Of a DNA stretch of 44,212 nucleotides, positions 6,150 through 43,260 are shown piece after piece. A model generated the notes under the pieces. It had not been told where the DNA came from. It searched no databases and saw only the letters and a program-made list of their open reading frames with translations. Made by a program: the position numbers and the translations under genes. The DNA is from a bacterium (GTDB taxonomy: Bacteria; Gemmatimonadota; Glassbacteria; GWA2-58-10), in assembly GCA_021372515.1 (NCBI GenBank), contig JAJFUG010000044.1, positions 1 through 44,212 on the forward strand, in the 5' to 3' direction. Positions within the stretch are counted from its first letter, which is position 1. Every line of letters begins with the position of its first letter.

Positions 6150-7148
6150 TTATTTTTGCTTCGGCTCAACCATCTTGTGCTGGCTGTTAATATAGCTTTG
6201 TCCCTCGGCCGTTAAAAACATGTCCATCCATAGATAGGAAAGGAGTTCGTCCTGTTTGACCGATGCGGAGTGTTTCGAGCCGAGGGGAATGTGCAGCAGA
6301 GTGTTCTCCAGCAGGAGCGCCTCTGCTCCATCGGCGTTACAGGTGCAGCGGCAGTTTTTCAAGCCCAGGAATAGCTGGTCGAGCATGGGGTGATCGTGGA
6401 CTCCGACTGAATCCGGGCCAGTCGTCTCCACCGTTCCCATGCACAATCGCGGCACATAGCCCTCAGGCAACAGCATCCGGTTGATTGTCTTCGGACTCTT
6501 TATCGCTTCCGTGTAAGCTTGGCACTCGGTGTACTTCTTCGCATAAAGACCGGAATGCATGTCCGCGTTCTGACGGATCGCTTCGATGTCCTCGGCTGTC
6601 AGAGTCCTGCGAACTCTCAGACACCTGAATTCATCACCCGCCTTGACCTCTATCCGGTATTTGTTCCCATAGGGAGGCCTTATTATCTGCTCCGCCACAG
6701 CCTCCAGGAGATTCTCTGCCGAGGAGAAAGCCGCCTTACCGGACATAACCAGCAGGACATCGTAGACGTCTTCCCTGCCGGCTTGCACATATGAACAATG
6801 CCCGCTGATTGAAATGGCGTCGGTGGCCAGTTCAGTCACTTCTCCGGCAAGCACCGGAGAGAAAAGAATGGAGTTGCTCTCCCCCGGTCCGCGGTCGAAA
6901 ACAATTTTCTGAGTTTTTATCTCCTGTCTTCGTACCGTCTGGGCCGTGCATTCCGAATCCGGTAGAACCGCGCGCTCCATTTGCGTCAGGGTACCGCCAC
7001 CGGCCGCATCAGCCTTGCCGCTGCCGTTCATTCCGAGAATGGCCGTCACGAACGCACCGGCGACAAAAAAATCCCTGCGGCTCATTCTGCCTTTATCAAC
7101 CGGCCGCGGCTTCCCACATTCCCTTGCCTCTTTGCAGGAGTTGGACAT
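6150..7148 (-). CDS. Tat-exported cupin-domain protein
   Basis: I place the start at the ATG at 7148, preceded by GGAGGA (7152-7157), and not at an upstream ATG at 7319 that would overlap the neighbouring gene; this gives 332 residues. A twin-arginine motif (MSRRDFF, residues 22-28) is followed by a hydrophobic stretch and AXA-like end. The C-terminal half shows a cupin pattern: GVHDHPMLDQLFLGL (paired His) and, after a strand pair, HIPLGSKHSASV with another His, consistent with a metal-binding double-stranded beta-helix. Substrate and activity are unknown. It follows the metallo-beta-lactamase-fold gene by about 92 bp on the same strand. Confidence 0.65.
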   Translation of the reverse strand: MSNSCKEARECGKPRPVDKGRMSRRDFFVAGAFVTAILGMNGSGKADAAGGGTLTQMERAVLPDSECTAQTVRRQEIKTQKIVFDRGPGESNSILFSPVLAGEVTELATDAISISGHCSYVQAGREDVYDVLLVMSGKAAFSSAENLLEAVAEQIIRPPYGNKYRIEVKAGDEFRCLRVRRTLTAEDIEAIRQNADMHSGLYAKKYTECQAYTEAIKSPKTINRMLLPEGYVPRLCMGTVETTGPDSVGVHDHPMLDQLFLGLKNCRCTCNADGAEALLLENTLLHIPLGSKHSASVKQDELLSYLWMDMFLTAEGQSYINSQHKMVEPKQK

Positions 7149-7240
7149 TTGTCCTCCAATTTGTGACTGTGTCCTGTCGCAGACTTGCCGCCAATTGCTG
7201 CTCCGGCTCCTCGCGGCCCAGCCTGTGGAAACCGGTCGGC

Positions 7241-8155
7241 TCAGTAGTTTGCATACTCCGGGTGTGCCTGCAGAAAGACAACTTTCTGCTGGTGACGGTT
7301 CTCCACCATTTTCAGCCACTGCCCGCGCGTGACAAAGGGGAAACCATCCGCGCGCATCTCGTTGAACACCTGGTGCGGGTGCCCGCCCAGGTAGAGGTCG
7401 AACTGGAGGGACTTGAGGATTTCCACGGTCCGGTCGTAATCGGCGCAGATACCGGGATACTTGTTTTGCTCGAACTCCTCCACATCGTCCTTGAACCCGG
7501 TGGCGTCCCCGGCCGCCAAAGCGCGGCAGGGACCCTGGGGACCGTCCAGCGTGACCAGGTAGACCACCTCGCCGCGGGTCTGTCCGGGGGTGTAGAGCAC
7601 TTTCACCGTCGCGTCGCCCAGGTCGAACACCTGGCCGTCTTCTATGTCTTTCACTCTATCGCACGGAGTCAGAACAGATTTGCCGCGGTAGAGGCCCGTG
7701 CGGACAACCTCGGCGTCGTACTTGTTCAACAGCACCTCGGCGCCCGAGAGCGCGGCGATCCGCGCCGCACCGCCGGAGTGGTCGGGGTGCCAGTGGGTGA
7801 TGAAGATTTCCTTGATCTGCTGCGGGTCGAGGCCCAGCTTGCGGACATTGTCCTCGACCAGGCTGCTGTCCCGCCCGCGGTAGCCGGAATCGAACAGGAC
7901 CAGCCCCTGGGCGGTTTTCAGCAAATAGACACTCACGTCCACCGGCCCGACCGAATAGAGCGGCCCGTAGATTTGCTCCGGCGCCGGGTTGGGACGCGGT
8001 TTGCCCTGTTCATCCTGGTAGGTCCTGAAACGGAAAGCGGTGCTGAACCGGCTGCTGTCCGAGGTCGAGGCGGCCACCTCGACCGCGGCCCGGGCCTCGG
8101 TCCAGCCGAAACCCAGCAGCAGGCAGAGCAGAACTGTGCGCAGGGTGATTCTCAT
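7241..8155 (-). CDS. Exported metallo-beta-lactamase-fold hydrolase
   Basis: The start is placed at the ATG at 8155, with GGAGG at 8161-8165 and an immediate signal peptide (MRITLRTVLLCLLLGF...ARA); an upstream ATG at 8260 would delete this layout. The product is 304 residues. It has the HxHxDH motif (THWHPDHSGG), an AAGDATG Asp ligand and a terminal GGHPH, so it belongs to the MBL superfamily, closest in appearance to subclass B3-type or lactonase-type proteins. The third His usually found in TPGHTPG is Gln192 here (TPGQTRG, codon 7580-7582), so the canonical first zinc site is altered. True beta-lactamase activity should not be assumed. Confidence 0.85.
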   Translation of the reverse strand: MRITLRTVLLCLLLGFGWTEARAAVEVAASTSDSSRFSTAFRFRTYQDEQGKPRPNPAPEQIYGPLYSVGPVDVSVYLLKTAQGLVLFDSGYRGRDSSLVEDNVRKLGLDPQQIKEIFITHWHPDHSGGAARIAALSGAEVLLNKYDAEVVRTGLYRGKSVLTPCDRVKDIEDGQVFDLGDATVKVLYTPGQTRGEVVYLVTLDGPQGPCRALAAGDATGFKDDVEEFEQNKYPGICADYDRTVEILKSLQFDLYLGGHPHQVFNEMRADGFPFVTRGQWLKMVENRHQQKVVFLQAHPEYANY

Positions 8156-9665: not shown

Positions 9666-11144
9666 TCAGCCCAGAATGGCCTTTTCGGCGTGACGGACTA
9701 TGCGGTCGATCTCGGTGATCTGATTGTCATCCAGGACCGGCTCCAGCGGGCGGGCGATGATTGCGCGCACCTTTTCCTCGGCCAGGCGCTCCATGCCGCG
9801 CACCGGACGGTCCTTGTAGACCTCCCAGCTCAGGCACTCGGTCAGCTCGCTCAGCCAGAACTCCTTGCGGAAATTGTCCGCGGTGTGCGGCTCGCCGATG
9901 AAATTGCCCTCCGGCCCCACCTTGAGAGTCTGGTCAACGGCCAGGCTCTCCTCGGTCACGGTCAGCCCGGCCAGCACCCGGCGCAGGTAGCGCACCATCT
10001 CGGCATCCAGCACCAGTTGCAGCGGGCTGTAGGTCAGGCAGCCCTCCACCTGGCCGACAGTGCCGATCCCGGTGGCGCCGCACAGCAGAGGGATCAGCGC
10101 GCTGGCGGCTTTCTGCATCCCGGCCTGGAACCCCGGCTCGCAGGCGTCGCTCTTGCCGCCGTGCACCCCGCAACTGATCCCGTACATCTCCTTGAGGAAC
10201 TGGATCCAGGCCCCGAGCAGGGGCAGACGGTCAGCGCCGGCGAGCTGGAACAGAAGGGTGTTCATGTCGCAGTAGCTGCCGCAGAAATCCAGGCTGAGCA
10301 CGGCCTCCCGGTCGACCGCGTAGCCCAGGACCAGTCCGCCCAGGGTCTCGGCCAGTCCCACGGCCAGGGTCCCGGCGCCGGTGGCCGGTGTGGTCGTGCC
10401 GGCGCAGGGCATGGTGTCTATCGACTGCGGCAGGCCCTGGCGGATGTACTCGATGAACACATCCGCCATGTTGCCGTCCAGCGCCAGCGGGCTACGGCTC
10501 TCGGCGTAACCCACCAGGCAGGGGCGGGCGCGAAGAGTGGCCTCGTCCCCGCGCACCACGACCGCGATTTCCTTGATGAAACGGACATCGGTAACGGTCC
10601 AGGCCTCGATGCCGCCCAGCTTGGTGGTGTACTTGGCCAGCTCGGCCGCCATCTTGACCGGCCGCAGGGGGGCCGGCACCGCCTGGTCGGAGCAGGGCAG
10701 GCCGGAGTGGGTGATGTCATCCAGGGCGTTGACAAGCTTGAGGCCGTCGAGCAGGTCCTGGCGGGTGGCGGCGCGACGGTTGCGGTCGAGGTCGTAGACC
10801 AGGGTGCAGAACCCGCCCGAGTTGGCCGTGAAACTATGGCAAAGCTCCTCATCGCGCTTGTAGTAGCTGGATTCCGTGTAGCGGTTGCCCTGGCGAAGGC
10901 CGCGCCTCTCCGGGCGAAGGTAATCGCCGCGGAGCCGCTGGGCCGCCTCCTGGACCACGGCCTGCGGGAACCGGACCCGCTCGCCGGCATTGTCGACCGC
11001 GCAGCCCAGGGCCTCCAGCATCCGCCGCGACTCGGCATGATGCACGATCATCCCGGCCCGCTCCAGAATGTCGAGGGCCGCCTGCTGGAGCAGCCCCATC
11101 TCAGCCTCGCTCAAAACCTTTATCCTGCCGAACAGTCCGGACAT
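9666..11144 (-). CDS. MttB-superfamily (trimethylamine/betaine methyltransferase-like) protein
   Basis: The start chosen is the ATG at 11144 (MSGLFGRIKVLSEAEM), typical for the family N-terminus; an upstream in-frame ATG at 11204 adds 20 atypical residues. The product is 492 residues, the family's usual size. Family features include the ILERAG(M)IV...HH start, HGGKSDACEPGFQAG, GATGIGTVGQVEGCLTYSP and LDAEMVRYLRRVLAG. MttB proteins transfer methyl groups from methylated amines to a corrinoid protein. This one has no in-frame amber codon, so it is of the non-pyrrolysine class (betaine or other quaternary amines). No corrinoid protein or RamA-like activase is present in the window. It is the first gene of a two-gene unit with the Nramp-like transporter. 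Confidence 0.85.
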   Translation of the reverse strand: MSGLFGRIKVLSEAEMGLLQQAALDILERAGMIVHHAESRRMLEALGCAVDNAGERVRFPQAVVQEAAQRLRGDYLRPERRGLRQGNRYTESSYYKRDEELCHSFTANSGGFCTLVYDLDRNRRAATRQDLLDGLKLVNALDDITHSGLPCSDQAVPAPLRPVKMAAELAKYTTKLGGIEAWTVTDVRFIKEIAVVVRGDEATLRARPCLVGYAESRSPLALDGNMADVFIEYIRQGLPQSIDTMPCAGTTTPATGAGTLAVGLAETLGGLVLGYAVDREAVLSLDFCGSYCDMNTLLFQLAGADRLPLLGAWIQFLKEMYGISCGVHGGKSDACEPGFQAGMQKAASALIPLLCGATGIGTVGQVEGCLTYSPLQLVLDAEMVRYLRRVLAGLTVTEESLAVDQTLKVGPEGNFIGEPHTADNFRKEFWLSELTECLSWEVYKDRPVRGMERLAEEKVRAIIARPLEPVLDDNQITEIDRIVRHAEKAILG

Positions 11145-11292
11145 GTGCCTGACCTTTCGCTTGGTCCCTGGTGCGCGCCGCGACCCTGCCGCAGCGGAAA
11201 ACATATTTACCAGTAATAAAGCCGCGGCCCAAGCTGCTCCGACCGTGGCTTAACATTCAGGATAGAGCCATCGGTTTCCCCGGCCGCGCCGT

Positions 11293-14416: not shown

Positions 14417-15640
14417 TCAGAAACCGAAAGCCACGGTGAAAAAGTTGTCAGAGGAAAGCCGACCTTTGTTGCGGTAGGCGTAGTTGAACTCCAGGGTCTT
14501 GCCTTTGACGTTGCGCTTGATCCCGCCGCCGCAGCTGAAGCCGCGGAACGTCGGATCGTCGCCGTTGTAGGCGATGCCGGTGTTGTCCGTGTCGTCCGTG
14601 TACTCGTCGGTCTGGATTTTCCAGCCCAGGCGCAGCGCCGCGGAAATGTACTCGGTGAAATTGAAGCTCACCTCCGAGCCGGTGGAATAGCTGAGCGGCA
14701 TGTAGCTGTTACGGTTGATCTCGCCGGTGGCCAGCCAGTTGAGGCCGCCCGAGGTGTACAGGTTGTACGAGAGCGCCATCTTGACCACGGTGGGAAGGTG
14801 ATAGGTGTGGGTCTTGTACTGGCCTTCCCTGGTTGTGCGCCGCATGATCGCCAGCGGGTCGTTGGAGTAGTCGCCGTAGCCGTCCGGGATCGAGGCCTCA
14901 CCGGTCTCGCCCCGTCCCTCCGGGCTGACTGACACGTCCAGCAGCGAGCCGCGCATGGTGACATTGGTGCCGAGGTTCTGTACGGCGAAAGCCAGCTTGA
15001 CCTCGCGGCCGGCGAACTCCGTATGGTAGATCCCGCCCGCGTCGATGGCGAACGCATTGCCGGACAGGTTGTTGAACACGTCCTGGTGCACGTACTTGAG
15101 GCTCAGGCCGCCGGTGAAGCGGTCGGAGAAGGTGTAGGCCACGGTGCCGCCCATCTGGAAATCGTAGGCCCCGAACACCCGTCCGTCGCCGTTGGGCGTG
15201 GAGACAGTGGTGATCTTCATCTCACCGATATCCAGGTAGCCGAAAAACGCGCCCAGCACCACGGAGCCGTCCCCCACCGGGGTGGCGCCGCACAGGTAGC
15301 TGTATTTGAGGTCCATGGTGTAATCGACCATGGTGCCCATGATCTGGGTGTTCTGCAGGAAACCCAGGCCGGCGGGGTTGTACCAGATCGCGGAGATGTC
15401 ATCCGCCACGGCGGTGTAGGCATCCCCGAGGCCGATGCCGCGCGCCCCGACCGGAATGGTGAGGAACTCGGCCGCGCGCACCCCGGCGAACGAAAGGTTG
15501 TCCGGCCGCCCCTGGGTGACATACTTGTCCAGACCGGTGTATTCCCGGTTCTGGATGCCCTGGCCCAGCAGGGACCCGACCATGGCCAGCAGGGCAGCGG
15601 CGGCGGTGAGCAGCGTGTGCTTCATGTATTTACTCGACAT
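14417..15640 (-). CDS. PorV/PorQ-family (UPF0164) outer-membrane protein, cassette 1
   Basis: The start is the ATG at 15640, with GGAGGT at 15646-15651, giving 407 residues; an upstream ATG at 15667 is not supported. A signal peptide (HTLLTAAAALLAMVGSLLGQG) is followed by the PorV-family N-terminus: AAEFLTIPVGARGIGLGDAYTAVADDISAIWYNPAGLG (written here as the region at about residues 56-93). Beta-barrel-like strands follow and the chain ends in FFTVAFGF with a terminal Phe, typical of outer-membrane barrels. PorV in type IX secretion acts as a shuttle or attachment partner for secreted proteins with C-terminal sorting domains; the gene just upstream encodes such a protein, which supports a partner role. 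It is closely similar to the PorV-like protein of cassette 2. Confidence 0.85.
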   Translation of the reverse strand: MSSKYMKHTLLTAAAALLAMVGSLLGQGIQNREYTGLDKYVTQGRPDNLSFAGVRAAEFLTIPVGARGIGLGDAYTAVADDISAIWYNPAGLGFLQNTQIMGTMVDYTMDLKYSYLCGATPVGDGSVVLGAFFGYLDIGEMKITTVSTPNGDGRVFGAYDFQMGGTVAYTFSDRFTGGLSLKYVHQDVFNNLSGNAFAIDAGGIYHTEFAGREVKLAFAVQNLGTNVTMRGSLLDVSVSPEGRGETGEASIPDGYGDYSNDPLAIMRRTTREGQYKTHTYHLPTVVKMALSYNLYTSGGLNWLATGEINRNSYMPLSYSTGSEVSFNFTEYISAALRLGWKIQTDEYTDDTDNTGIAYNGDDPTFRGFSCGGGIKRNVKGKTLEFNYAYRNKGRLSSDNFFTVAFGF

Positions 15641-15704
15641 AGCTGACCTCCGAATAAGAGAAGACATCGGGCTGTTTAATCAGTTTCGACCCGGCCCCTC
15701 TGCC

Positions 15705-18700
15705 TCAGTTGACGATGTAGAACTTGCCGGTGCTGGTCTTGCCCCGCGAATCGGTCACATGGAAGAAATACAGGCCGCTGGCCACCATCTGGCCGAAACG
15801 GTTGCGCAGGTTCCAGGGCTCGGCGCCGCCGTGGTTGTCCCAGCCCTGGTACTGCTTGGGGTTGTTCTCAATGTCCAGCTCGTCCCAGTCGGTGTAGTTA
15901 CCCCAGCCGTTGCGGTTGGCGCCGATATGGTTGAGGACGTTGACCAGCACGCCGCCCAGGGAGTAGATGCGGATCGTGCAGACCGCGGGCAGGTTGACGA
16001 ACTCGATGCGGCGCGAGGCCGGCCCGATGTCCAGGAACGAGGAGGCGATGTAGGGGTTGGGGACCACGTTGATCTTGCTCAGGTCCGCATCCTCCGGGTT
16101 CAGGCTGTAGGGCTTTACATCCACGGTCCATTTGTCGCCCAGCTGCGGCAAGTCGGCGTACTGGGTGAACACCGTCATCCCGTCGTTCCAGGCGCCGAAA
16201 GCCACATCCACGGTCCAGACCGTGCCCGGCTCCGGCATCTCCGCGTCCCCGCCCAGGGGACGCACGACCCAGCAGAGGCCGTCGATCCAGAACCCAAACT
16301 CCCCGGTGCGGTCGGAGGGAAGCTTGTCCAGCATCTTGTACTGGCGCTCCTCCCTGGGCACCTCGTCCTCGTAGATTTCCCGCAGGTAATTGCCCATGTT
16401 GCCCGGCTCGGTAAAGCTGCCGCCGTAATCCTCGGTGGTCTGGAAGCCCCAGCCCATTTCATCCACGAACTCGACATGGCCCATGGCCTGGCCGCGGGTC
16501 ACGTCCTGGACCTCCACGGTCAGGAAGCCCCCGCCGGCGCTCTTCCAGGTGACCTGGTAGCGTCCGGAGCGGGTCATGGCGATATTGCTGGGCATGGAGC
16601 CGGGGCCCTCCTCCTCGCCGCACTCGCGGCTGGTGAAAAGCCCGATCTCCATGATCGGGTGGGCGGTCAGGTAGCCGCCGTCATCCAGATGGTAGTACAG
16701 CGGCGGCGCGCCGAACATGTTGACCTTGGACAGTCCCTTGAAAGTGGCGTTCAGCAGGTAGTTCAGCCCCTGGGAATCCCGCGGGCCGCTGAAAATGAAC
16801 TTCTGCTCGTCGTCCCCGCCGCCGTAGATATCCATCGCCGGGCCGTCGTAGCCGCCGCCGGTGAGGGAGATGACCCGGTGTCCGGCGTTCGCTTTCCCGA
16901 TACAGTAGTCAGGGGTGTAGGCGTCCGCGCCGGTGCAGGCGAGCGTGAGGGTGAAAGCGCTGGTGATCCGCTCGCTGTTGATCGCCTCGAACTCCACCTG
17001 GAGGTCCGGATCGAGCAGCGCCGGGGGCTGTGTCAGCTTGCCGGTCCCATCCCCGGTCAGAAGGGCGGTGGAGGCCGTCTGCGCGCTCCCATCCAGCGGA
17101 TGGAACACGATCGGCAACGCGGCGGCGGGACGGTAATTGCTGGCATCGCTTCGCGGGATCACGGTGAACAGGCCGTTCTGCGGGCTGCCGTACCAGATCT
17201 TGCTGGCCTCGACCGGAGGAAGGCTGAACTGCTCGCCGGTGACCGGGTCGAAATTCTTGTCGTACGGCACCAGGGCGTACCAGACCCGCAGGCCGTTGGC
17301 CATGCGGCGGCGCTCGTCGCCGTCGATTTTGTCGACATGACTGAACATCAGGGTCCCGTCCGAGAGGTTGCCCTCCCAGATCTGCTCGGCGTGCGAGTCG
17401 TTCGGCCCGGTGTAGCTGCGGTACAGGCGGTAACCCTCGAAATCCTTCTCCACGTAGTTATGGTTCGGGTCGAGCTCCGGGTTGGCCTGCAGGAACGCGT
17501 AGTAGGGGTCGGACTGGGACAGGTTGATGTCGCTCCAGGTGAGGGTCACCTGGCGGTCGCCGGGGATGATGGTGATAGTGGGGGCCACCGGCGGCACGGG
17601 CAGGGAGTAGCCGCTGCTCAGGATCGACTGCGCCGCGGCGACGTAGTCCTCGATCGGGGCGAGCTGGGCCTGGAAGCCCGGATCGTCGATGTTGGCGATC
17701 TGGTCCGCGGGCAGCACCGCCGGCGGGTTGGCCGGATTCACGAACATGAACACGTAGTCGATGCTGGTGGTGTCGCGTGGAGCGAAATTATTAAGCACGC
17801 TGTAGAAAGAATACACCGAGGAGCCGGCGTGACCGAACACCCAGCGGTTCTCGTATTGGGTGCCGCGCAGGACGCCCGGCCAGCCCTGGGCGGTCTGACC
17901 GGTGAACGGGTTGATCTGTCCGCTGAAAACATTGCCGCCATCGCCCAGCCCGTACCGCCAGACCTCTCCGGTGGGACGCCCGGTGGCCAGGAGGTTGGGG
18001 CCGTTGGTGAAACCGTAGGTGGTGGTGCTGCCCAGACGGCACTCGATATTCGTCAAGTCCATCACCTCACCCTGCCAGGAGGGCGGGTTGAGGAGCTTGA
18101 AAGCGACGAAGGGCGTATAGCCGCCGGTGAAACCTTCGTTCGTGCCGTCGATATCGAACTGAACCGGCACCCTGAGGCCCGGATGGAAGGCCCAGCCGAC
18201 GTCTGACGTCCCTCCATCGCCGATGGTCATGGCGGTGACCACATGCATCAACTCCCACTGGCGCCAGGTCTGGCCGTTCTGAGTGCCGGCCACCATGCTG
18301 GCGATGTCGCGGTTCCACTTGAGGTACTCGCTCATGTTCTGGATGCGCGTGTGGCCGAAAACCATGTTGGCGCTGATGCTGAAATTGAGGAAATAGAACT
18401 GGTTTTCGAGCGAGGCCCCGCTGCCCAGCTCGCCCGGTATCCAGACATCCGAGCTGAAGGTGGCGAGGGTCTGGGCGCCGTGGAGTATCGGGGCGCCGCC
18501 GGCCGAGCGGCCCTCGCGGAACTGCAACGGCCAGTCCTCCAGGTCGGCCGCGTCCAGCGAGGACCAGACCTGGTTGAGCTCCACCGTGCTGGCGCCCAGT
18601 TTCATCTCGATGCCGCTGTGGTAGGCGGCCTCAAGAAGGTCACGGGCCTCGGGTGTGGCGGTGTAGCCACGCATCCAGGCGCCGCTCGATTGGATGCAGG

Positions 18701-18977
18701 TGGTGTCCTCAATCGTTCCATCGCCGTCCAGGTCGCGCACGCAGTTGAGCGCGAAAGTCCAGCGGTCAGCGGCGATCTGGTTGCCGGAGCCAGCCGGAAA
18801 CTGGTGCGCCGGTGAGCCCGAGAATGTCAGGGCGTCTCCGGTGGAAACGACGACAAAGCCGACATTGTTGCCGGAGGCGGTCACCGTCTGATTCACCTCC
18901 GCCCGGAGTGGAACGGCCAGAATCAGTGCGCCGGCGGCCAGGGTCAGAGCGATCAGAGAAATCTTGATCAGCTTCAT
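15705..18977 (-). CDS. Large secreted surface protein with Fn3-like and T9SS/FlgD-Ig-like C-terminal domain, cassette 1
   Basis: The 1090-residue protein begins with a signal peptide (LIALTLAAGALILAVPLRA). Near residues 82-90 is DLDGDGTIE, a calcium-loop-like motif. A central fibronectin type III-like domain starts around PPVAPTITIIPGDRQVTLTWSD (about residues 465-490). The last 110 residues (IRIYSLGGVLVNVL..., then ASGLYFFHVTDSRGKTSTGKFYIVN at the end) resemble type IX secretion sorting domains and FlgD Ig-like domains. I do not recognise a catalytic domain. It lies between the receptor and PorV-like genes with gaps of about 65 bp, and AGGAG precedes its ATG, so the three genes form one operon. 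It occupies the place SusD has in Bacteroidetes Sus loci but is about twice the size and unrelated by eye. Confidence 0.8.
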   Translation of the reverse strand: MKLIKISLIALTLAAGALILAVPLRAEVNQTVTASGNNVGFVVVSTGDALTFSGSPAHQFPAGSGNQIAADRWTFALNCVRDLDGDGTIEDTTCIQSSGAWMRGYTATPEARDLLEAAYHSGIEMKLGASTVELNQVWSSLDAADLEDWPLQFREGRSAGGAPILHGAQTLATFSSDVWIPGELGSGASLENQFYFLNFSISANMVFGHTRIQNMSEYLKWNRDIASMVAGTQNGQTWRQWELMHVVTAMTIGDGGTSDVGWAFHPGLRVPVQFDIDGTNEGFTGGYTPFVAFKLLNPPSWQGEVMDLTNIECRLGSTTTYGFTNGPNLLATGRPTGEVWRYGLGDGGNVFSGQINPFTGQTAQGWPGVLRGTQYENRWVFGHAGSSVYSFYSVLNNFAPRDTTSIDYVFMFVNPANPPAVLPADQIANIDDPGFQAQLAPIEDYVAAAQSILSSGYSLPVPPVAPTITIIPGDRQVTLTWSDINLSQSDPYYAFLQANPELDPNHNYVEKDFEGYRLYRSYTGPNDSHAEQIWEGNLSDGTLMFSHVDKIDGDERRRMANGLRVWYALVPYDKNFDPVTGEQFSLPPVEASKIWYGSPQNGLFTVIPRSDASNYRPAAALPIVFHPLDGSAQTASTALLTGDGTGKLTQPPALLDPDLQVEFEAINSERITSAFTLTLACTGADAYTPDYCIGKANAGHRVISLTGGGYDGPAMDIYGGGDDEQKFIFSGPRDSQGLNYLLNATFKGLSKVNMFGAPPLYYHLDDGGYLTAHPIMEIGLFTSRECGEEEGPGSMPSNIAMTRSGRYQVTWKSAGGGFLTVEVQDVTRGQAMGHVEFVDEMGWGFQTTEDYGGSFTEPGNMGNYLREIYEDEVPREERQYKMLDKLPSDRTGEFGFWIDGLCWVVRPLGGDAEMPEPGTVWTVDVAFGAWNDGMTVFTQYADLPQLGDKWTVDVKPYSLNPEDADLSKINVVPNPYIASSFLDIGPASRRIEFVNLPAVCTIRIYSLGGVLVNVLNHIGANRNGWGNYTDWDELDIENNPKQYQGWDNHGGAEPWNLRNRFGQMVASGLYFFHVTDSRGKTSTGKFYIVN

Positions 18978-19044
18978 TTGTTTATCTCCTGCTGAGCGTT
19001 GCGCTGTTTAATCTCGATCCGGAGCAGGGCGTCCGGCCAGGGGA

Positions 19045-22000
19045 TCAGAAATTGAGGTCCAGGCCGAAACGCACCTGCCTGGCTATTCCCCAGCGCCGTT
19101 TGTTCATCGTATCGAGCATGAACTGCTGCGCAATGGCGCCCTTGGCCTGTTCCTCCACGGTCAGGATGCCATCCTGGTTGTAGTCGTTCTTGAACCGGGC
19201 CCGCTTGTACTGGTCCAGCGAGGGGTCATTCCAGTTCAGGTCCACCCCGCCAGCCACGTTGAGGTACTCCTTGGACTGGTAGCCGGAGGGATAGAGCGCG
19301 CTGTTCTTACGGTTGAGCAGGTTGAATATCTCGGAATAGAAATTCAGCTTGCGCGACTTGCCCAGGCTGAAACTCTTGTTGACCCGCAGGTCGAGGTTGT
19401 AGTACCAGTGGCCGCGGTAGTGGTTCAGCAGTACGCTGCGCGACATCAGGAAAGTCAGGTCTGAATCCAGAAGCGTCGCGTCATCCGAGAGCGGCTGGCC
19501 GCTTTTGAGCGAGAAGTTGGCGTTGAGGTTGACGTCTTTCAGAAGCTTCTTGGCCAGATCGCCGGGCAGATAATCCGTCTGGACCAGGTACTGCGCCAGG
19601 ACCGAGAATTCGTGTGTCCGGTCGCCGTCGTTCGGCCACAGCACATCCGGCGGGGTGAATGTTTCGTTCGTGGTCGCATCCAGATAATCGTTGTCTGCGC
19701 CCTGACGTCCGCCTCCGGAGCCATTGGGCGTGGCTCCGATATTGGAGCCTGTAGCCCTGGAAAACTGCATCGTATAGGCTAAATTCAAGGCCAGGCTGTT
19801 GGAGTACTTTTTCTGAAGGGTCAAATCGAAACCCTTGATGTTTCCGATGTCGCCGTTGGTGAAACCGGTTTCCCAGTCCCTGATCCGGCGCCCCTCCTTA
19901 AACCGGTAGTAGTCGCGGAAATAAGTCTTCTGGGTCACGTTACCGTCTATGTCCCGGTAGAACGCCACCAGGTCCAGGACCACATCGTTCGAGGGCAGGA
20001 AACTGATCCCGGTCTCGAAAGCCTGGGTCCGCGAAAACTTCAGGTTTCCCGGGTTGAGCTCGGTGAATATCGTGGTCATACCGGGCACCTGGGAGAAAGT
20101 CCCGTAGGAGAACCGGAGCTGCGAGCGGTCGGTGACCGGGAAAGCCACGTTGAAACGCGGCGACCAGGCGGAGAGGTTCTTGACGAAGAAGCGGTCCCCC
20201 AGGTTGTCGCCGTTGCGGCGTCCCCAGTTGTCCACCGGGTCGAACCAGTCGTAGCGGATTCCGTAATCGAAAATAAAATCTCCGAGGTCAGTCCGGTTCT
20301 GGAGATAGGCCCCCAGCATCCGGGGCCGGTAGTTGAACTCGTTGCGCCCGTTTTCTCCCAGGCGCCGCGGCTCGATGCCGTGAATCTCCAGCTCGCGGTT
20401 CTTGAAATCGGTCCACTGTAATCCGAGCTTGGCGCGATTCTCGCGGTTGAGCTGGAAATCGAGATCGCCCTTGTAATTCCACTGGCTCTCGTCCACATGG
20501 AAATAGGCCAGCCAGTAGGCCCAATTTTCAGTCACCATGCCGAATGGTGTGTTGTAGGGATTATCGATTGCACCGTGGGTCAGTCCGTCCGGCAGGTACA
20601 AGTGCTGAGCTTCCACGTTGTTGGTCGGTATCTCCCAGTTCGGGTAGCTTTCGATTTCGAACGGGATATCGTGCAGCGACCAACCCCACAGCGTGGTGTT
20701 GTCCTCGCGGCGGTAGTTGGTCTTGAGGCTTGAGCTGGCGACATCGTTGGTGCTGAAACGCGACAGACGGAACTGCAGGGCGCCGCTGTGCGTGGAGCTT
20801 TTCAGGAAATCCCAGTCGAATCCGGCCAGCATGTTATAGGTCCTGGTTCGACGGGCGTAGCTCTGGGGCACGTAGACCTGGGTCTCCCCGTCTTTCCAGT
20901 TACGGTTGGGGAAATCCTGTTTTGTGAAAATGCCGTTCAGGAAATAGTTACCCTCGCCCCCGCTGAAAGCGCTGTTGCCCACAGGATAGGACCGCTGGTT
21001 GCGCGAGTAGTTGTCGCTGAGGATCACTTTCAGACCCGGCAGGGGGTTGTAGACCAGCTTCTCGGACAGCAGCGAGCGGTCTTTCCAGTTGTCGGGCAGG
21101 CGCACCGGGTTGCCTGGCGTGAAAAGGCCGGGTGTGTTTCCGGTCTTGGCCGCCCAGCTGTCATACCCGTTGCGGAACATCTCCAGGGTGTAAGGTGGGT
21201 TCTGGCTGCCCAGCAGAGGGTCGTTTTTCACCGCCGTGTTGAGACGGTCGACGAACTCCTGGTTCACACCGCGGAAGCCCTCATCCGCATGGGTCGGGTC
21301 GGCGTCCAGAGCACTTTGTATCTCGCCCGAAACATTGAAAAAAAGGTTCGGGATCAGGGGTATCGGTCCGCCGATCCCGGTCTGGAGCTGGTTGTAGCCC
21401 CAGTCGGAGGTGATGGGCATGACCATGTCGGTGGTGTAGCGCACGTTGCCACGGAACTCCGGCCCGCCCTCCTTGGTGACGATGTTGATGATGCCGGACT
21501 GGGCGTTGCCGTACTCGGCCTGGAAGCCGCCAGTGATTACGTCCACTTCCTCGACCGAGCCGGTGGCCAGTTCCAGAGGGTGGGAATCTGCGCCGGTGGA
21601 AGAGATTTCCTGCGAGTACATGTTCCCATTTGGGTTCGAGTTCGGCTGATCGTTGTTGGCCATCGGCTCGGCGGTGAAATTGCGCGCCAGCACGCCGTCG
21701 ACCATCATCGCCTCCTCACCCAGACGGCCACCGCGGATACGCAGTCCACGGCTCATGCCGCCCTCTCCTCCGATCTGAACGCCGGCCTCCAGGACAAGCA
21801 GGTCTTGAAGGGTGGTGTTGGGAGAGGAGATAAGCTCGGCCGTGGTCAGACGGTGCTTGGTGGCTGTATTGTCCCTCGGCATCAGCACCTCGCTCTGGCC
21901 CTCGATCACGATCCCCTCCATCTCCACGACCGAGCCGCTCAGCCTGGCATCCACCGTGGTGGTCTGGCCGGCGAGAATGAGCTGGCCGGCGACCGTTGTC

Positions 22001-22278
22001 TTCTGGTACCCGGTGAAAGTGAAGACAATGGAACGCCGGCCGGGGGAGACGTTGAGGATGAAATAGTAGCCATCCGCGTTTGTGACATTGCCCTGACGGG
22101 TCCCCTCCACTATCACCTGGACCCCAGCCAGGGGATTGCCGCTGTCCTTGTCCCGGACCGTGCCCTCGATCTTGCCCACGTTCAGCTGACCGAAAAGGAC
22201 TCCGGCGCTCAGCAGCATAAGCAGCCACAGGGCCGTGACGAGGAGTGCTCCGGTCCGGTGAGATATTTTTCTTTCCAT
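19045..22278 (-). CDS. TonB-dependent receptor with carboxypeptidase-regulatory-like N-terminal domain and C-terminal EF-hand loop, cassette 1
   Basis: This 1077-residue outer-membrane receptor has a signal peptide (about 1-31), a carboxypeptidase-D-regulatory-like domain (GKIEGTVRDKDSGNPLAGV to about 115), a plug domain (LQDLLVLEAGVQIGGEGG..., RIRGGRLGEEAMMVDGV, and AEYGNAQSGIINIVTKEGG near 255-275) and a long beta-barrel ending in RQVRFGLDLNF. It should import a large or scarce ligand using TonB energy. Residues 1032-1043 read DYNQDGILTVEE, a perfect EF-hand loop, located between the last two barrel strands and flanked by predicted helices. AGGAGG directly precedes the ATG. It is the first gene of the three-gene cassette, with a 490-bp leader region upstream. 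No SusD homologue follows. Confidence 0.92.
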   Translation of the reverse strand: MERKISHRTGALLVTALWLLMLLSAGVLFGQLNVGKIEGTVRDKDSGNPLAGVQVIVEGTRQGNVTNADGYYFILNVSPGRRSIVFTFTGYQKTTVAGQLILAGQTTTVDARLSGSVVEMEGIVIEGQSEVLMPRDNTATKHRLTTAELISSPNTTLQDLLVLEAGVQIGGEGGMSRGLRIRGGRLGEEAMMVDGVLARNFTAEPMANNDQPNSNPNGNMYSQEISSTGADSHPLELATGSVEEVDVITGGFQAEYGNAQSGIINIVTKEGGPEFRGNVRYTTDMVMPITSDWGYNQLQTGIGGPIPLIPNLFFNVSGEIQSALDADPTHADEGFRGVNQEFVDRLNTAVKNDPLLGSQNPPYTLEMFRNGYDSWAAKTGNTPGLFTPGNPVRLPDNWKDRSLLSEKLVYNPLPGLKVILSDNYSRNQRSYPVGNSAFSGGEGNYFLNGIFTKQDFPNRNWKDGETQVYVPQSYARRTRTYNMLAGFDWDFLKSSTHSGALQFRLSRFSTNDVASSSLKTNYRREDNTTLWGWSLHDIPFEIESYPNWEIPTNNVEAQHLYLPDGLTHGAIDNPYNTPFGMVTENWAYWLAYFHVDESQWNYKGDLDFQLNRENRAKLGLQWTDFKNRELEIHGIEPRRLGENGRNEFNYRPRMLGAYLQNRTDLGDFIFDYGIRYDWFDPVDNWGRRNGDNLGDRFFVKNLSAWSPRFNVAFPVTDRSQLRFSYGTFSQVPGMTTIFTELNPGNLKFSRTQAFETGISFLPSNDVVLDLVAFYRDIDGNVTQKTYFRDYYRFKEGRRIRDWETGFTNGDIGNIKGFDLTLQKKYSNSLALNLAYTMQFSRATGSNIGATPNGSGGGRQGADNDYLDATTNETFTPPDVLWPNDGDRTHEFSVLAQYLVQTDYLPGDLAKKLLKDVNLNANFSLKSGQPLSDDATLLDSDLTFLMSRSVLLNHYRGHWYYNLDLRVNKSFSLGKSRKLNFYSEIFNLLNRKNSALYPSGYQSKEYLNVAGGVDLNWNDPSLDQYKRARFKNDYNQDGILTVEEQAKGAIAQQFMLDTMNKRRWGIARQVRFGLDLNF

Positions 22279-22768: not shown

Positions 22769-24235
22769 TCAGTCGGAGGACCCGGGCAGCAGCCGCTCGA
22801 TCTTACGGCGCAGGGAGCAGCGGGTCAGGCCGAGGAAAGCCGCGGTGCGGGTGATATTGCCCTTGTGCAGGCTCAGGGCCTTGCGGATCACCTGGGCCTC
22901 GACATCGTCCAGGCGCAATCCCTCCGGCGGCAACAGGATAGAAAGCGCATGCTCGGCGACTCCAGAGGCTTGGACACCCAGGGTGGGCTTACCCGGCAGA
23001 AGGAAATCCAGGTGACCGGGCTTGATCTCCTCGTCGTCGTGGAGCAGCACCACCCGCTCGATCGTGTTCTTCAGCTCGCGGACATTTCCCGGCCAGGCGT
23101 GGGCTTCCAGGATCGCCAGCGCCGCCGGGCTTATCGACCTGAAACGCAGCTTTTTCTGACTGGCCAGTTGCTCCAGGTACATCTGGGCCAGGGGCCCGAT
23201 CTCCTCGCGCCGCTCGCGCAGCGGCGGAATGAGGACCCGGCCCACGTTCAGACGGTAGAACAGGTCCTGGCGGAACTGGCCGCTCTTGACCTGACGCTCC
23301 AGGTCGAGGTTGGTGGCGCAGATCACCCGGACATCGATCTCAATCTTTTTCAGCCCACCGACCCGGAAAAGGTTTTTCTCCTGCAGGACCCGCAGCAGCT
23401 TGGGTTGCAGCTCCAGGGGCATGTCCCCGATCTCGTCGAAGAACAGGCTCCCGCCCTGGGCCAGCTCGAACTTGCCTTTCTGCCCCTCCCGCCTGGCCCC
23501 GGTGAACGCGCCGCCCTCGTAGCCGAAAAGCTCGCTCTCGAACAGGCCGGGCGAGATCGCCGGACAGTTAATCGGCACGAACGGGGCGCTCACTCCACCA
23601 TCGCCGTAATGGATGAGGCGCGCGATAATCTCCTTGCCCGTTCCAGTCTCACCCTCGATCAGCACCGAGATCGAGCGTTCGCGGTGCAGCTTGCGGGCCG
23701 TTTCCACCACCCGGTGCATCTTGTCCGAGAAGATGCCCACTCCCTCCAGGCCGACTGCACCGGCATAGGCGCTCTGGAGCTGCTCGAGCTGGGAACGGGT
23801 CTCGCGCGTGGCCTCCCGGACTTTCTCGGTGAAATGGTGGGTCAGCTCGTAGTTTTCCTTGATCAGGGCCTGGTGCTCGGTGACCCGCTCGATCACCGCG
23901 GTCAGCTCATCCAGGTCGATGGGCTTGCTCAGGTAGTCGTAGGCGCCGGCGCGCAAGGCGGACACCGCGGTTGACATGTCGCCGTGGGCGGTCACCAGTA
24001 CAACATCGGCAGCCCGGCCCTGGGGCGTCTCTTTCAGCTTTTTCAGCAGCTCGATCCCGTCCATGCCCGGCATGCGGATATCGGTCAGCACCATCTGACA
24101 GGTGTCGTTCCGGAAAGCCTCCAGGGCCTGGGCCGCGCTGTTGCAGCAGGTGACATGATGGCCGAGCTGGCTTTCGATATGCACGCTCAGCGCGTCCCGT
24201 CCCAGCGGCTCGTCATCCACGAACAGTATGTGCAT
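22769..24235 (-). CDS. NtrC-family sigma-54-dependent response regulator
   Basis: The 488-residue protein has a receiver domain (acidic pocket VDDE at 6-9, phospho-acceptor D52, T82, K104), a linker, and an AAA+ sigma-54 activator domain. The latter shows Walker A GETGTGKE (195-202), the sigma-54-contacting GAFTGA loop (242-247) and Walker B GGSLFFDEI (261-269). A Fis-type helix-turn-helix ends the chain (about 450-485: DVEAQVIRKALSLHKGNITRTAAFLGLTRCSLRRKI region). It should activate sigma-54 promoters when phosphorylated by the sensor kinase encoded 17 bp upstream. Candidate sigma-54 sites lie before the downstream TonB receptor gene and before the sensor gene. All functional motifs are intact. 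Confidence 0.95.
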   Translation of the reverse strand: MHILFVDDEPLGRDALSVHIESQLGHHVTCCNSAAQALEAFRNDTCQMVLTDIRMPGMDGIELLKKLKETPQGRAADVVLVTAHGDMSTAVSALRAGAYDYLSKPIDLDELTAVIERVTEHQALIKENYELTHHFTEKVREATRETRSQLEQLQSAYAGAVGLEGVGIFSDKMHRVVETARKLHRERSISVLIEGETGTGKEIIARLIHYGDGGVSAPFVPINCPAISPGLFESELFGYEGGAFTGARREGQKGKFELAQGGSLFFDEIGDMPLELQPKLLRVLQEKNLFRVGGLKKIEIDVRVICATNLDLERQVKSGQFRQDLFYRLNVGRVLIPPLRERREEIGPLAQMYLEQLASQKKLRFRSISPAALAILEAHAWPGNVRELKNTIERVVLLHDDEEIKPGHLDFLLPGKPTLGVQASGVAEHALSILLPPEGLRLDDVEAQVIRKALSLHKGNITRTAAFLGLTRCSLRRKIERLLPGSSD

Positions 24236-24252: not shown

Positions 24253-27200
24253 CTATTCTACGTGGATGAGCGGAATCTCGACCAGAAAGACCGCCCCGCC
24301 CGCGGCGGCATCGGAGACTTTGACCCGTCCGCCGAACTCCTCCGCAAAGCGCTTCACAATCGCCAGGCCGAGGCCCATGCCCTGTTCCGGCTTCTTGGTG
24401 GTGAAAAACGGGTCGAACAGCTTGTCCCGCAGCTCCGCAGGCACTCCGGGGCCGTTGTCCTCCACCGCCAGGCAGGCCGAGCCGTTATCCTGGTACAGCC
24501 TGATCCGGATCGATTTGTCCCCGCCGTCCACCGTGTCCAGGGCGTGGATTGCGTTCACCACCAGGTTCAGCACGATCTGCTCGGTGTTGACCTTGTTGGC
24601 CTGGACCAGGATGGACTTGTCCTTTTCCTCGAGTGCGAGATCTATGCCATGCGAATCAAGCTGGCCGCGGACCAGGAGCAGGGCGCTGTGCACGGCCTTG
24701 TTCAGGCTGATTATCTCGGTCCGACCGCCACCCGGCGAGGCCCAGTAGGAGCGCATCTGGCTGATTATCCTCGAAATACGGCCCACGCTGCCCGAGATCG
24801 AGAGCAGCAGTTTCTCGTACTGTTCCGGGAGTATGCCCGCGTTCTTCCGGAGCCAGAAAAACACGGTGTCCGCCACGGCCTTGATGTCGTTGAGCGGCTG
24901 GTTGATCTCGTGCGTTATCCCGGCCGCGATCACGCCGATGGAGGCCAGACGCGCGGCTTTCTCGGCCATCTGGATCGACTCGCCCTGCTTTTTCTCAGCC
25001 TCCAGGCGGGCCTGGAAATGACAGAACCGTTCCCAGGCGTTGGTGATTATGTCCGTGGCGGTCTGGAAGAATTCGAGTTCCTCCGGTTTCCAGCCGTACC
25101 TCTCCCGGCGGCCGAAACAGACCAGCCGGACTACCTGCCCGGAAATGAGCAGCGGGAAGATACAGACCGAGCCCAGAGCGAGCCCCAGGAAGAAATCGCG
25201 CCGCTCCGGCTCCAGGGCGCGGACATCCTCCGAGACAAAACACCCGCTCTGCCTGATCCGCTGCAGCAGCCAGTGGGTCAGGACGATGGCTTTCTCACCC
25301 CGGTTCTCCCGGGCGGTGGGATCATCCTGCGCGCACTTTTCCCCGCTCCCCGCCTCCGACTGGCCGTCCGGGAGTGGTTCGAGAAGGCAGGCCTCATCCA
25401 GGCCCATCTGCTCGGCAATCGCAAGCATGATCTCCTCCACCGCCTCCTGGAACGAGACCGACGAGCTCATGCGCGAGGCGATCGCGGCCAGAAGGCTCTG
25501 GTGCTTGAGCATGACCTCCAGGCTGGAATGCTGCTGCTGAAGGTCGCGGGTGCGCTCGACCACGAGCTTTTCGAGCAGGACATGCCGGTGGACCGCGTAA
25601 CCCAGAAGGATGAGGATGACCGTGCCACCGATGGTCATGATGATCTGGAAACCGAGTTCCCGGTACCAGGGCACGAGCACGGTGAACCCGAACCCCGCCG
25701 GCTCGGGAGTGACATTCAGATTGTCGTCCATGGCCCGGACCTCGAAACGGTGCGGGCCGTAGGGCAATTTGTTGTACACGGCCACGTTACCGGGCTTGAA
25801 CTGCGACCACTCGCCGCTGTCCAGACGGCAGGAGTACAGAAGGCGCTCGGTGCGGGTCTGTTTCCAGCGGTCCGCACCGGAAAAGATGAGCCGCACCTCG
25901 CCATCCGGCGGGGTTTCCCGCAAATTCTCATTTTCGGGAACGAAAGTCAGGGGCGGGTCGGCGTCCGCCTCCGGGTGGTACAGGCTCAGGCCGCCGATAG
26001 TGCCGGCCCAGACCCGCCCGCGGCTGTCCTGGAAGATCGAGAAGACCGCCGTGTTCGGCAGTCCGTCCTCGATGGAGTTGGTGACCCAGGCGCCGTCCCG
26101 CCAGCGGTGGATGCCGTTGCCGCTGCCGACCCAGACTGTCCCGTCCTTGCCCCTTACTATCGAGCGCACGCTGGCCAGGCCCGAGCGCACCAACGACCAG
26201 CGCTCCCCGTCGTACTCCTGGATAGCGTCCCGTCCCCCGACCCAGACCCGGCCCTTAGCGACCTCGCAGATACAGAACACACTCCCCCCGGTGTAGCCGT
26301 CCGCCGGACCGAAAGACCTGAATTGACCCTGGCGGTACAGCGCGATGCCGTTGCCGAACGTGCTGGCGATCCAGAGGTCGCCGCTCTCGGTCTCGTAGAG
26401 GTAGCGCAGGTTGCTGATATTGCTCTGCTGGTTCACGTCCAGAAAATGCTTGAAGCTGTGCCCGTCGTAGACCTCCAGACGGAAAACGGAGGAATCGGCC
26501 GCGGGGTGAGTCTCGACCCAGAGCGTACCGTCCCGCCGGGGAGCGATCAGCCGGATGTAATGTACATCTGACTTGCTTATCGCCACCTGCTGGGGGTGCG
26601 GCACAAACCCGAAGCTTTCCCTGACCGGGTCGAAGGTGAGCAGCGAATCCTGGTACTTCAGCGTTCCGATCGCGATACGGCCATCCGGCAGGCTGCTGAT
26701 CGACTGGGTCATGTAGGGATGGGTTTCCACGCCCTTCGGCAGCGGATAGATTGTCCAGTAGTTGTCCTGAAAGTGCAGCAACTGGTAGACCGCCGCAAAC
26801 CAGAGCCCTCCCTGGCGGTCCTCGCAGATCGAATGGATGCGGCTGTCGACCTGACGGACCTGCACCGGGGTCCTCCATATCGGCGGGGTATACCGGGCCA
26901 GACCGTGGGAGGTCGCCAGCCAGAACACTCCCTGCTCCCCGACTGCGACATCGAACAGCTCCCCGGAGAGCAGACCGGCTTTCTCCTGGACTTTCTCCTT
27001 TCCCCCCAGGATCAGGGAAAGCGCCTGATGTTCCTTGACCGCCCAGAAGCTGCTGTCCTGTCCCGGCCAGCCCTTGATCACCTCGCCGCTGTAGCCGGTG
27101 AGAACCCGCCAGCCGGTCCCGTCAAAATGGACCATTTCTTTCCGGCCGCTGCGGGCGTTCACTCCCACGGCCACCAGTTCTCCATCCGGTGCACAGCTCA

Positions 27201-27918
27201 GGGTCTGAAAGTTTTTCAATCCCGTGCTCAGCAAGGGGAAAGCCTGCCATTGCAGGCCGGCGCCCCCGGCTTGCCGGGTGAGACGGCAGACACCCCTTTC
27301 GGCGGTCAGCCAGATATTGTCCGCTGCATCAATGTTCATGTCGATAAAGCGGCCCAGACCAATATTCTCAGCCGTTACGGCGACTGCCCGGCTGCCTGTG
27401 GCGATGTCGAAGCGGCCCAGCGATGCAGGCAGAAGGAAAAAGAAACTGTCCTTTTCCCCCGGCAGCATGAGTATACGGGCGTTAATCTTGGGACCGTCTT
27501 CATCTACTTTGGAGGCAAGGCTTTCAATTTCATCCACCGTGTACTGGGTCAATCCACCGTCGCTTAGCAGGTATGCATTGCCGGTAGCGAAAACCCAGAT
27601 TTGGCCCGCTCCGCTCTCATACACACGCCCGTTCCCGCTGACCTCATAAGAATAGCGGACAAACCCTCCATCCGGCGCCGGCCAGCCGTCCAGACGGCCC
27701 AGTTTGGTCGTTTCTCCATGGGAAATATAGACTTGTCCGTCACGGCAGATCGAGACCCCGCTTGTATAGGGACCCGACAGGCCGTCCTCCACGCCGAAAA
27801 ACCGCCATTCGGCCTGCTGCTGGCAGTTTGCCCCACGGATGCACAACAGCAGCGCGGCCGCTCCCAAGAACAGGGCGACGGCCAGCGGGCGCCAGATTGT
27901 GTAAACCGGGTGCGGCAT
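24253..27918 (-). CDS. Beta-propeller sensor histidine kinase (Reg_prop/Y_Y_Y, GAF, HisKA, HATPase)
   Basis: A 1221-residue membrane sensor. After a signal/anchor segment (about 10-30) come two-component-regulator propeller blades, for example IHSICEDRQGGLWFAA, VRSIVRGKDGTVWVGSGNGI and AVFSIFQDSRGRVWAGTIGG (to about 660), and a Y_Y_Y-like domain (to about 745). One transmembrane helix (FQIIMTIGGTVILILLGYAV), a GAF-like domain (about 800-970), a HisKA domain with phospho-acceptor H1003 in THEINQPL, and an HATPase domain (N box NLVVNAIHAL, DNGPGVP, GMGLGLAIVKRF) follow. The periplasmic propeller resembles that of Bacteroidetes hybrid PUL sensors, which bind oligosaccharides, but there is no fused receiver or AraC domain; output goes to the adjacent NtrC-type regulator. 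Ligand is likely a glycan fragment (inference). Confidence 0.92.
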   Translation of the reverse strand: MPHPVYTIWRPLAVALFLGAAALLLCIRGANCQQQAEWRFFGVEDGLSGPYTSGVSICRDGQVYISHGETTKLGRLDGWPAPDGGFVRYSYEVSGNGRVYESGAGQIWVFATGNAYLLSDGGLTQYTVDEIESLASKVDEDGPKINARILMLPGEKDSFFFLLPASLGRFDIATGSRAVAVTAENIGLGRFIDMNIDAADNIWLTAERGVCRLTRQAGGAGLQWQAFPLLSTGLKNFQTLSCAPDGELVAVGVNARSGRKEMVHFDGTGWRVLTGYSGEVIKGWPGQDSSFWAVKEHQALSLILGGKEKVQEKAGLLSGELFDVAVGEQGVFWLATSHGLARYTPPIWRTPVQVRQVDSRIHSICEDRQGGLWFAAVYQLLHFQDNYWTIYPLPKGVETHPYMTQSISSLPDGRIAIGTLKYQDSLLTFDPVRESFGFVPHPQQVAISKSDVHYIRLIAPRRDGTLWVETHPAADSSVFRLEVYDGHSFKHFLDVNQQSNISNLRYLYETESGDLWIASTFGNGIALYRQGQFRSFGPADGYTGGSVFCICEVAKGRVWVGGRDAIQEYDGERWSLVRSGLASVRSIVRGKDGTVWVGSGNGIHRWRDGAWVTNSIEDGLPNTAVFSIFQDSRGRVWAGTIGGLSLYHPEADADPPLTFVPENENLRETPPDGEVRLIFSGADRWKQTRTERLLYSCRLDSGEWSQFKPGNVAVYNKLPYGPHRFEVRAMDDNLNVTPEPAGFGFTVLVPWYRELGFQIIMTIGGTVILILLGYAVHRHVLLEKLVVERTRDLQQQHSSLEVMLKHQSLLAAIASRMSSSVSFQEAVEEIMLAIAEQMGLDEACLLEPLPDGQSEAGSGEKCAQDDPTARENRGEKAIVLTHWLLQRIRQSGCFVSEDVRALEPERRDFFLGLALGSVCIFPLLISGQVVRLVCFGRRERYGWKPEELEFFQTATDIITNAWERFCHFQARLEAEKKQGESIQMAEKAARLASIGVIAAGITHEINQPLNDIKAVADTVFFWLRKNAGILPEQYEKLLLSISGSVGRISRIISQMRSYWASPGGGRTEIISLNKAVHSALLLVRGQLDSHGIDLALEEKDKSILVQANKVNTEQIVLNLVVNAIHALDTVDGGDKSIRIRLYQDNGSACLAVEDNGPGVPAELRDKLFDPFFTTKKPEQGMGLGLAIVKRFAEEFGGRVKVSDAAAGGAVFLVEIPLIHVE

Positions 27919-39827: not shown

Positions 39828-39896
39828 ATGATTACCTCCGTATCTTCATCGAGGAATGGACTCGTAACATCCGTCCCGGCTGTCGCCTGAGCCGGT

Positions 39897-43175: not shown

Positions 43176-43260
43176 AGGAATTGTCCTCGTTGATTGACGG
43201 GTTTTGTCAGACTGCATATCCGGCAGGCCCCGGGAAAGAAATCCGCAAGTCCGGCGGCTA

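Follow-up and report, generated by a model that had tools for sequence, protein, structure and literature searches.

The window, a DNA stretch of 44,212 nucleotides that was analysed at its full length, is contig 44 of a genome of 4.87 Mb (99.5% complete) that is close to Candidatus Glassbacteria. Its reverse strand encodes a TonB-dependent receptor (TBDR), followed by a large surface protein, here called SURF, and an outer-membrane barrel of the PorV/PorQ family (Table 1). The open reading frames and the Pfam and NCBIfam searches confirmed all three genes at the coordinates of the initial annotation. The gaps between them, previously both put at about 65 bp, measure 37 bp and 67 bp. In the receptor, the CarboxypepD_reg, Plug and TonB_dep_Rec_b-barrel domains each exceeded the Pfam cut-offs. 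A second copy of the cassette, which had escaped the initial annotation, occupies the opposite end of the window (38586-44212). The two SURF proteins are nearly identical in the C-terminal domain (CTD), at an overall identity of 45%.

Table 1. Features of the two cassettes and of the regulators beside cassette 1 (T9SS, type IX secretion system)
Feature	Position	Strand	Size or basis
PorV/PorQ-family outer-membrane barrel, cassette 1 (proposed dedicated shuttle and anchor)	14417-15667	-	416 aa; NF033709
Large surface protein (SURF), cassette 1	15705-18977	-	1090 aa; ORF, 35-member family, AF2 model
SURF CTD, residues 966-1090, T9SS signal of PorZ kind	15708-16082	-	PorZ model, motifs
SURF middle Ig/Fn3-like region, residues 461-965, of which 631-965 vary independently of the receptor	16083-17597	-	Sliding-window correlation for part of the region
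SURF N-terminal beta-rich domain, residues 27-460, proposed ligand-capture part	17598-18899	-	Co-diversification with the receptor barrel; whole-model Foldseek matches
SURF signal peptide, residues 1-26	18900-18977	-	Sequence read; lipobox cysteine absent
TonB-dependent receptor (TBDR), cassette 1	19045-22278	-	1077 aa; Pfam CarboxypepD_reg, Plug, TonB_dep_Rec_b-barrel
Response regulator with sigma-54 activator domain, adjoins cassette 1	22769-24235	-	Pfam
Reg_prop/Y_Y_Y/GAF/HisKA/HATPase sensor kinase, paired with the response regulator	24253-27918	-	Pfam
PorV-like barrel, cassette 2	38586-39827	-	NF033709, 141.3 bits
SURF, cassette 2	39897-43217	-	1106 aa; 45% identity to cassette 1 SURF
TBDR 3' (C-terminal) part, cassette 2, runs off the contig	43261-44212	-	48% identity to cassette 1 TBDR

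Conservation of the cassette and comparison with SusCD

The regions around the PorV-family genes of the same genome contained 17 loci with SURF and a PorV-like gene, and 15 of these include the whole TBDR gene. In all 17 loci the order TBDR, SURF, PorV-like was kept as far as the contigs reach, which argues against a chance arrangement. A SURF profile search of this genome returned 19 SURF genes or fragments. The PorV-family genes number more than 20, with one further PorV-like copy at a contig end. Co-occurrence of the three genes in this order had been proposed as a check, with SURF homologues lying mostly elsewhere as the outcome that would speak against a unit. When six genomes of the same family were searched, the TBDR gene was found just upstream of 44 of 44 full-length SURF genes and the PorV-like gene just downstream of 43, the exception lying at a contig end. 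Both partners were thus adjacent in 43 of 44 cases. We conclude that the cassette is real and expanded and that its three genes form a conserved unit.

Outside the family, the same three-gene order was found at 13 loci from Bacteroidota-labelled MAGs, Ignavibacteria, KSB1, Marinimicrobia, Zixibacteria and Balneola. It is mainly the Fn3-like and C-terminal parts that align in the SURF homologues of other phyla, where a shorter class of roughly 700 residues stands apart from the receptor-PorV pair. The closest relatives that have a name are Candidatus Glassbacteria MAGs and one MAG with the label Gemmatimonadales (JAJRTS01). The latter has cassettes of the same kind at six loci (L049, L051, L053, L054, L057 and L062) and may, despite its broader label, be of the Glassbacteria type. 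Some loci were arranged differently. At one locus of the family (L067) the order is receptor, PorV-like, SURF, with SURF cut by the contig end, and a similar swap was seen in a Neomarinimicrobiota locus (L104). A conserved row of five genes was observed at L077:6762-16338, L103:7548-17302 and similar loci of Ignavibacteria and Bacteroidota. It encodes a CTD protein of about 700 residues, a protein of about 705 residues, a probable lipoprotein of about 515 residues, a TonB receptor and a PorV-family barrel, and appears to be a cassette-related arrangement with additional components.

SusC/SusD pairs operate in gut Bacteroides. The initial annotation held that the SusD position is taken by a larger, unrelated protein, and the lack of a SusD was supported: SURF has no Pfam match, and SusD_RagB (PF07980) was found in none of the six family genomes, including the one studied here, with a positive Bacteroides control. 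As PF07980 was the sole SusD model applied, a very divergent SusD would be missed by this search. Of 35 further genomes from the phylum, 30 were matched by the same model; since the six genomes belong to a single clade, they provide one evolutionary contrast and not six. Each family genome had 5-25 PorV-family matches, as against 0-5 per genome elsewhere in the phylum.

With SusCD, which consists of a SusC/RagA receptor and a SusD/RagB lipoprotein, the cassette shares the tandem arrangement of receptor and surface protein, the multiple copies, probable regulators of its own and, around several cassettes, carbohydrate genes. The receptor architecture of CarboxypepD_reg domain, plug and barrel is common to both. 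In contrast to SusCD, the surface protein of the cassette is not SusD, lacks a lipobox and bears a T9SS CTD, and the third gene encodes a PorV-like barrel. The receptor also differs, since the cassette 1 TBDR scored 43.4 bits against the SusC/RagA family TIGR04056, where the cut-off is 368.

Type IX secretion features of the surface protein and its barrel

By sequence reading, SURF has a Sec signal peptide that is not followed by a lipobox. Pfam gave no match in the 35 members of the SURF family, and a sequence comparison of SURF with the PDB found no match. The PorZ model, in contrast, matched 35 of 35 members, in the window member over the C-terminal 95 residues. The last 125 residues contain PNPY, the loop motif IxIYxLxGxLV and the end G[KR]FxIV in all or nearly all of the 35 members, and no other region of SURF is as conserved as the CTD (mean distance 0.25). 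The features of a T9SS substrate are therefore present, namely a Sec signal peptide and a C-terminal Ig-like domain with the conserved loop glycine and the terminal strand. The type A sorting-domain model TIGR04183 matched 2 of 35 members weakly (best E 0.006), and its cut-off was not reached. The earlier description of a signal-peptide protein ending in a T9SS-type domain holds by the signal peptide read, the CTD motifs and the PorZ match.

Loop and terminal motifs that correspond to those of the SURF CTD are needed for T9SS function, and the CTDs of PorZ and PorU are not cleaved (PMC11285876). PorQ anchors PorZ, and PorV anchors PorU (PMC5562754). Since these two cases are known, there would be a direct precedent for a SURF that keeps its CTD and is held by a PorV/PorQ-like barrel of its own (PMC5562754, PMC11285876), and we infer by analogy that SURF may be anchored in this way. 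The PorZ:PorQ and PorU:PorV pairs of the T9SS attachment complex resemble the cassette in that a surface protein whose CTD is of the non-cleaved kind is combined with an anchor of the PorV/PorQ family (PMC5562754, PMC11285876). Unlike the cassette, which occurs in about 17 copies outside the machinery, they are single-copy machinery parts that come without a receptor gene.

The barrels of cassettes 1 and 2 reached 133.4 and 141.3 bits, respectively, with the NCBIfam model of the PorV/PorQ family (NF033709), where the cut-off is 90. The cassette barrel remained below the cut-offs of both equivalogs, with 56 of 250 bits for PorV proper (NF033710) and 80 of 220 bits for PorQ proper (NF033711). 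A separate PorV-family gene is present in the genome at C30:24937, next to a PorU-type C25 protease (C30:22593-23660). The cassette barrels are therefore additional to the likely PorV of the machinery.

A look for por genes in the genome had been suggested earlier, and it gave a divided answer. SprA was detected with a profile score of 483.8 bits, and PorU and the adjacent PorV were present as described above. GldL and GldM (PorL and PorM) gave no profile match in this genome, whereas a control flavobacterial genome was positive. GldM matches were also absent from the KSB1, Balneola, Zixibacteria and Ignavibacteria genomes that bear SURF homologues. Since GldM is missing in these other FCB genomes as well, the T9SS motor may be divergent or different in these lineages.

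For type B substrates of the T9SS, the shuttle gene lies directly downstream of the substrate gene (PMC12618676). The SprB-SprF system of F. johnsoniae is of this type and shares with the cassette a substrate gene followed by the gene of its own shuttle barrel, in many pairs per genome (PMC12618676). The cassette differs from it in that the barrel is of the PorV/PorQ family and not PorP/SprF, the CTD is PorZ-like and a receptor gene belongs to the unit. SprF/PorP (PF11751) was not matched in four family genomes, whereas the Owenweeksia control has 7 matches. Since the tests for SusD, SusC/RagA and SprF failed, the cassette is a member of neither SusCD nor SprB-SprF. Most likely, it is SusCD-like in its role and PorZ-PorQ- or SprB-SprF-like in its delivery. 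In the open-licence literature, outside of which are most subscription journals and preprints, no named system of this composition was found. The same literature, preprints again lying outside, contained no report of Glassbacteria with TonB or glycoside hydrolases.

A proposed capture-and-import unit

The reading that we prefer, and that we consider somewhat probable, is a regulated unit for surface capture and import, probably of glycans, in which a T9SS-delivered SURF stands in the position of SusD and is anchored by its own PorV/PorQ-like barrel. The three genes would encode one unit of an outer-membrane uptake family with many copies. SURF would leave the cytoplasm by the Sec pathway, directed by its signal peptide, and its CTD would then direct the passage of the outer membrane through an SprA-type T9SS translocon. 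On the cell surface, SURF would remain with an uncleaved CTD. The product of the neighbouring barrel gene would hold it there, in the way that PorQ holds PorZ and PorV holds PorU. The N-terminal half of SURF would be placed over the TBDR encoded upstream, where SusD is found in SusCD, and would capture a ligand that is most likely a glycan and is then imported by way of TonB.

A relation between SURF and the receptor was analysed by distance (Mantel) correlations across 23 cassettes. SURF residues 1-460 followed the receptor barrel (r=0.76, p=0.001) and residues 601-965 did not (r=0.14), a type of correlation by which contact and joint descent are not separable. In a sliding window, the correlation with the receptor was about 0.1 for SURF residues 631-930, and the change occurred near residue 600-650. 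These results indicate that SURF is a mosaic with its N-terminal part tied to the receptor. The SURF CTD correlated with the PorV-like barrel at r 0.39 and with the receptor barrel at r 0.38. The former is no stronger than the latter, so that a contact of the CTD with the PorV-like barrel is not singled out by the correlation. As a separate observation, residues 601-965 vary independently of the remaining cassette, as if they were swapped between copies.

Large CTD proteins are often adhesins. The three genes could accordingly encode separate parts that are co-expressed, the barrel delivering a SURF that is an adhesin or surface coat and the receptor importing something unrelated, with the genes being adjacent because the same conditions call for all three. 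Co-inheritance alone could yield the correlations between SURF and the receptor, and regulators common to the three genes would also fit. We regard this arrangement as unlikely, since order and adjacency are kept across phyla and through about 17 duplications, and since SURF tracks the receptor barrel up to about residue 630 but not over residues 631-930, which exceeds what simple linkage predicts.

For the barrel of the preferred capture-and-import unit, the fold was predicted with AF2 (pLDDT 82). The best Foldseek matches of the cassette 1 model were the PorV chains 8gl6_F and 6h3i_F, which are PorV bound in the translocon, followed directly by FadL and TodX. The best Pfam match was Toluene_X/FadL, below the cut-off. 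These matches would suit a second, FadL-like uptake channel in place of a shuttle, in a cassette that imports hydrophobic or aromatic compounds with the help of a surface catcher. This is improbable, since the sole match of the barrel-family profile among the PDB sequences was PorV (6h3i_F, E 1.3e-22) and not FadL, NF033709 exceeded its cut-off, and the barrel adjoins a T9SS-CTD protein in every cassette. The PorV/PorQ-family assignment made from the initial reading was upheld by NF033709 and by the likeness to PorV in sequence and in predicted fold.

The SURF model (pLDDT 78.6, pTM 0.54) matched PorU and PorZ in Foldseek, and also GH94 cellobiose phosphorylase, cyclic glucan synthase, GH116 and GH63 proteins; the glycoside hydrolase-type matches are a whole-model result with low TM-scores, for which the residue range is not given. 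Proteins of the GH94, GH116 and GH63 type have an N-terminal beta-sandwich, a carbohydrate-associated fold. Since the predicted secondary structure of SURF lacks a helical catalytic barrel, we read these matches as a possible likeness to this beta-sandwich, which is suggestive only. The same matches could point to a secreted enzyme that acts on cell-surface polysaccharide rather than a binding protein, which is very improbable given the lack of a helical catalytic barrel and of any Pfam or NCBIfam enzyme family among the SURF members.

Whether the cassettes amount to a separate FCB class of TonB-linked capture-and-import machine is, in our estimate, slightly less than an even question. In such a class, a T9SS-secreted protein on its own PorV/PorQ-like barrel would replace the SusD lid, and paralogous expansion in Glassbacteria would have taken place instead of that of SusCD. 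If this is true, the SusCD lid is not the sole means by which large ligands are imported with TonB in the superphylum. PorV-type shuttles would extend beyond the general T9SS parts and could each serve a single substrate as a dedicated component of an uptake unit. Carbohydrate loci would become annotatable in lineages where SusD-based searches find nothing. The recognition between a CTD and its cognate PorV-like barrel could be tested directly on about 17 natural pairs in one genome, as could the question of whether T9SS substrates serve as stable subunits of receptor complexes.

Regulators and neighbouring genes

Regulators were found directly upstream of 11 of the 15 complete cassettes. A sensor kinase with a sigma-54-activator response regulator was present at seven, of which six share a single homologous type that has propeller sensors, and a ROK protein at four. 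The response regulator that adjoins cassette 1 has homologues with 55-63% identity beside cassettes c03, c04, c07, c09 and c15, where homologues of its sensor kinase are also located. Most cassettes would be switched by their own neighbour, which is either a ROK repressor or a sigma-54-type response regulator paired with a propeller-sensor kinase. The hybrid two-component systems of polysaccharide utilisation loci likewise have a Reg_prop/Y_Y_Y sensor with a histidine kinase beside the receptor operon, whereas here the kinase and the sigma-54-activator response regulator are two separate proteins. Upstream of the receptor genes, sigma-54 promoters (-24/-12) showed no excess over the background. 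A common operator was not found either, as a dyad occurred in at most 3 of 13 sequences, as in shuffles. For the subset with kinase and response regulator, the candidate operator (3 of 7 sequences versus 2 in shuffles) was GC-rich and not convincing. Between the two cassettes of the window, the forward strand encodes a hybrid histidine kinase of 1480 residues with several PAS domains (31687-36129).

The carbohydrate genes of the window encode GH20, GH2 and a glucosamine-6-phosphate isomerase. The neighbours of other cassettes include a melibiase, a GH42-like protein, a CBM9 protein and a sodium:solute symporter. Carbohydrate genes were seen near several cassettes and were absent among the scanned neighbours of several others. 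Near the GH20 gene (3717-5312), long open frames at 2305-3483, 6150-7319 and 122-2047 had no Pfam matches. A methyltransferase of the MTTB family (PF06253) is encoded at 9666-11204. It is probably not of the pyrrolysine-containing type, since its frame is uninterrupted. The gene adjoins those of an Nramp transporter and a protein with the metallo-beta-lactamase fold.
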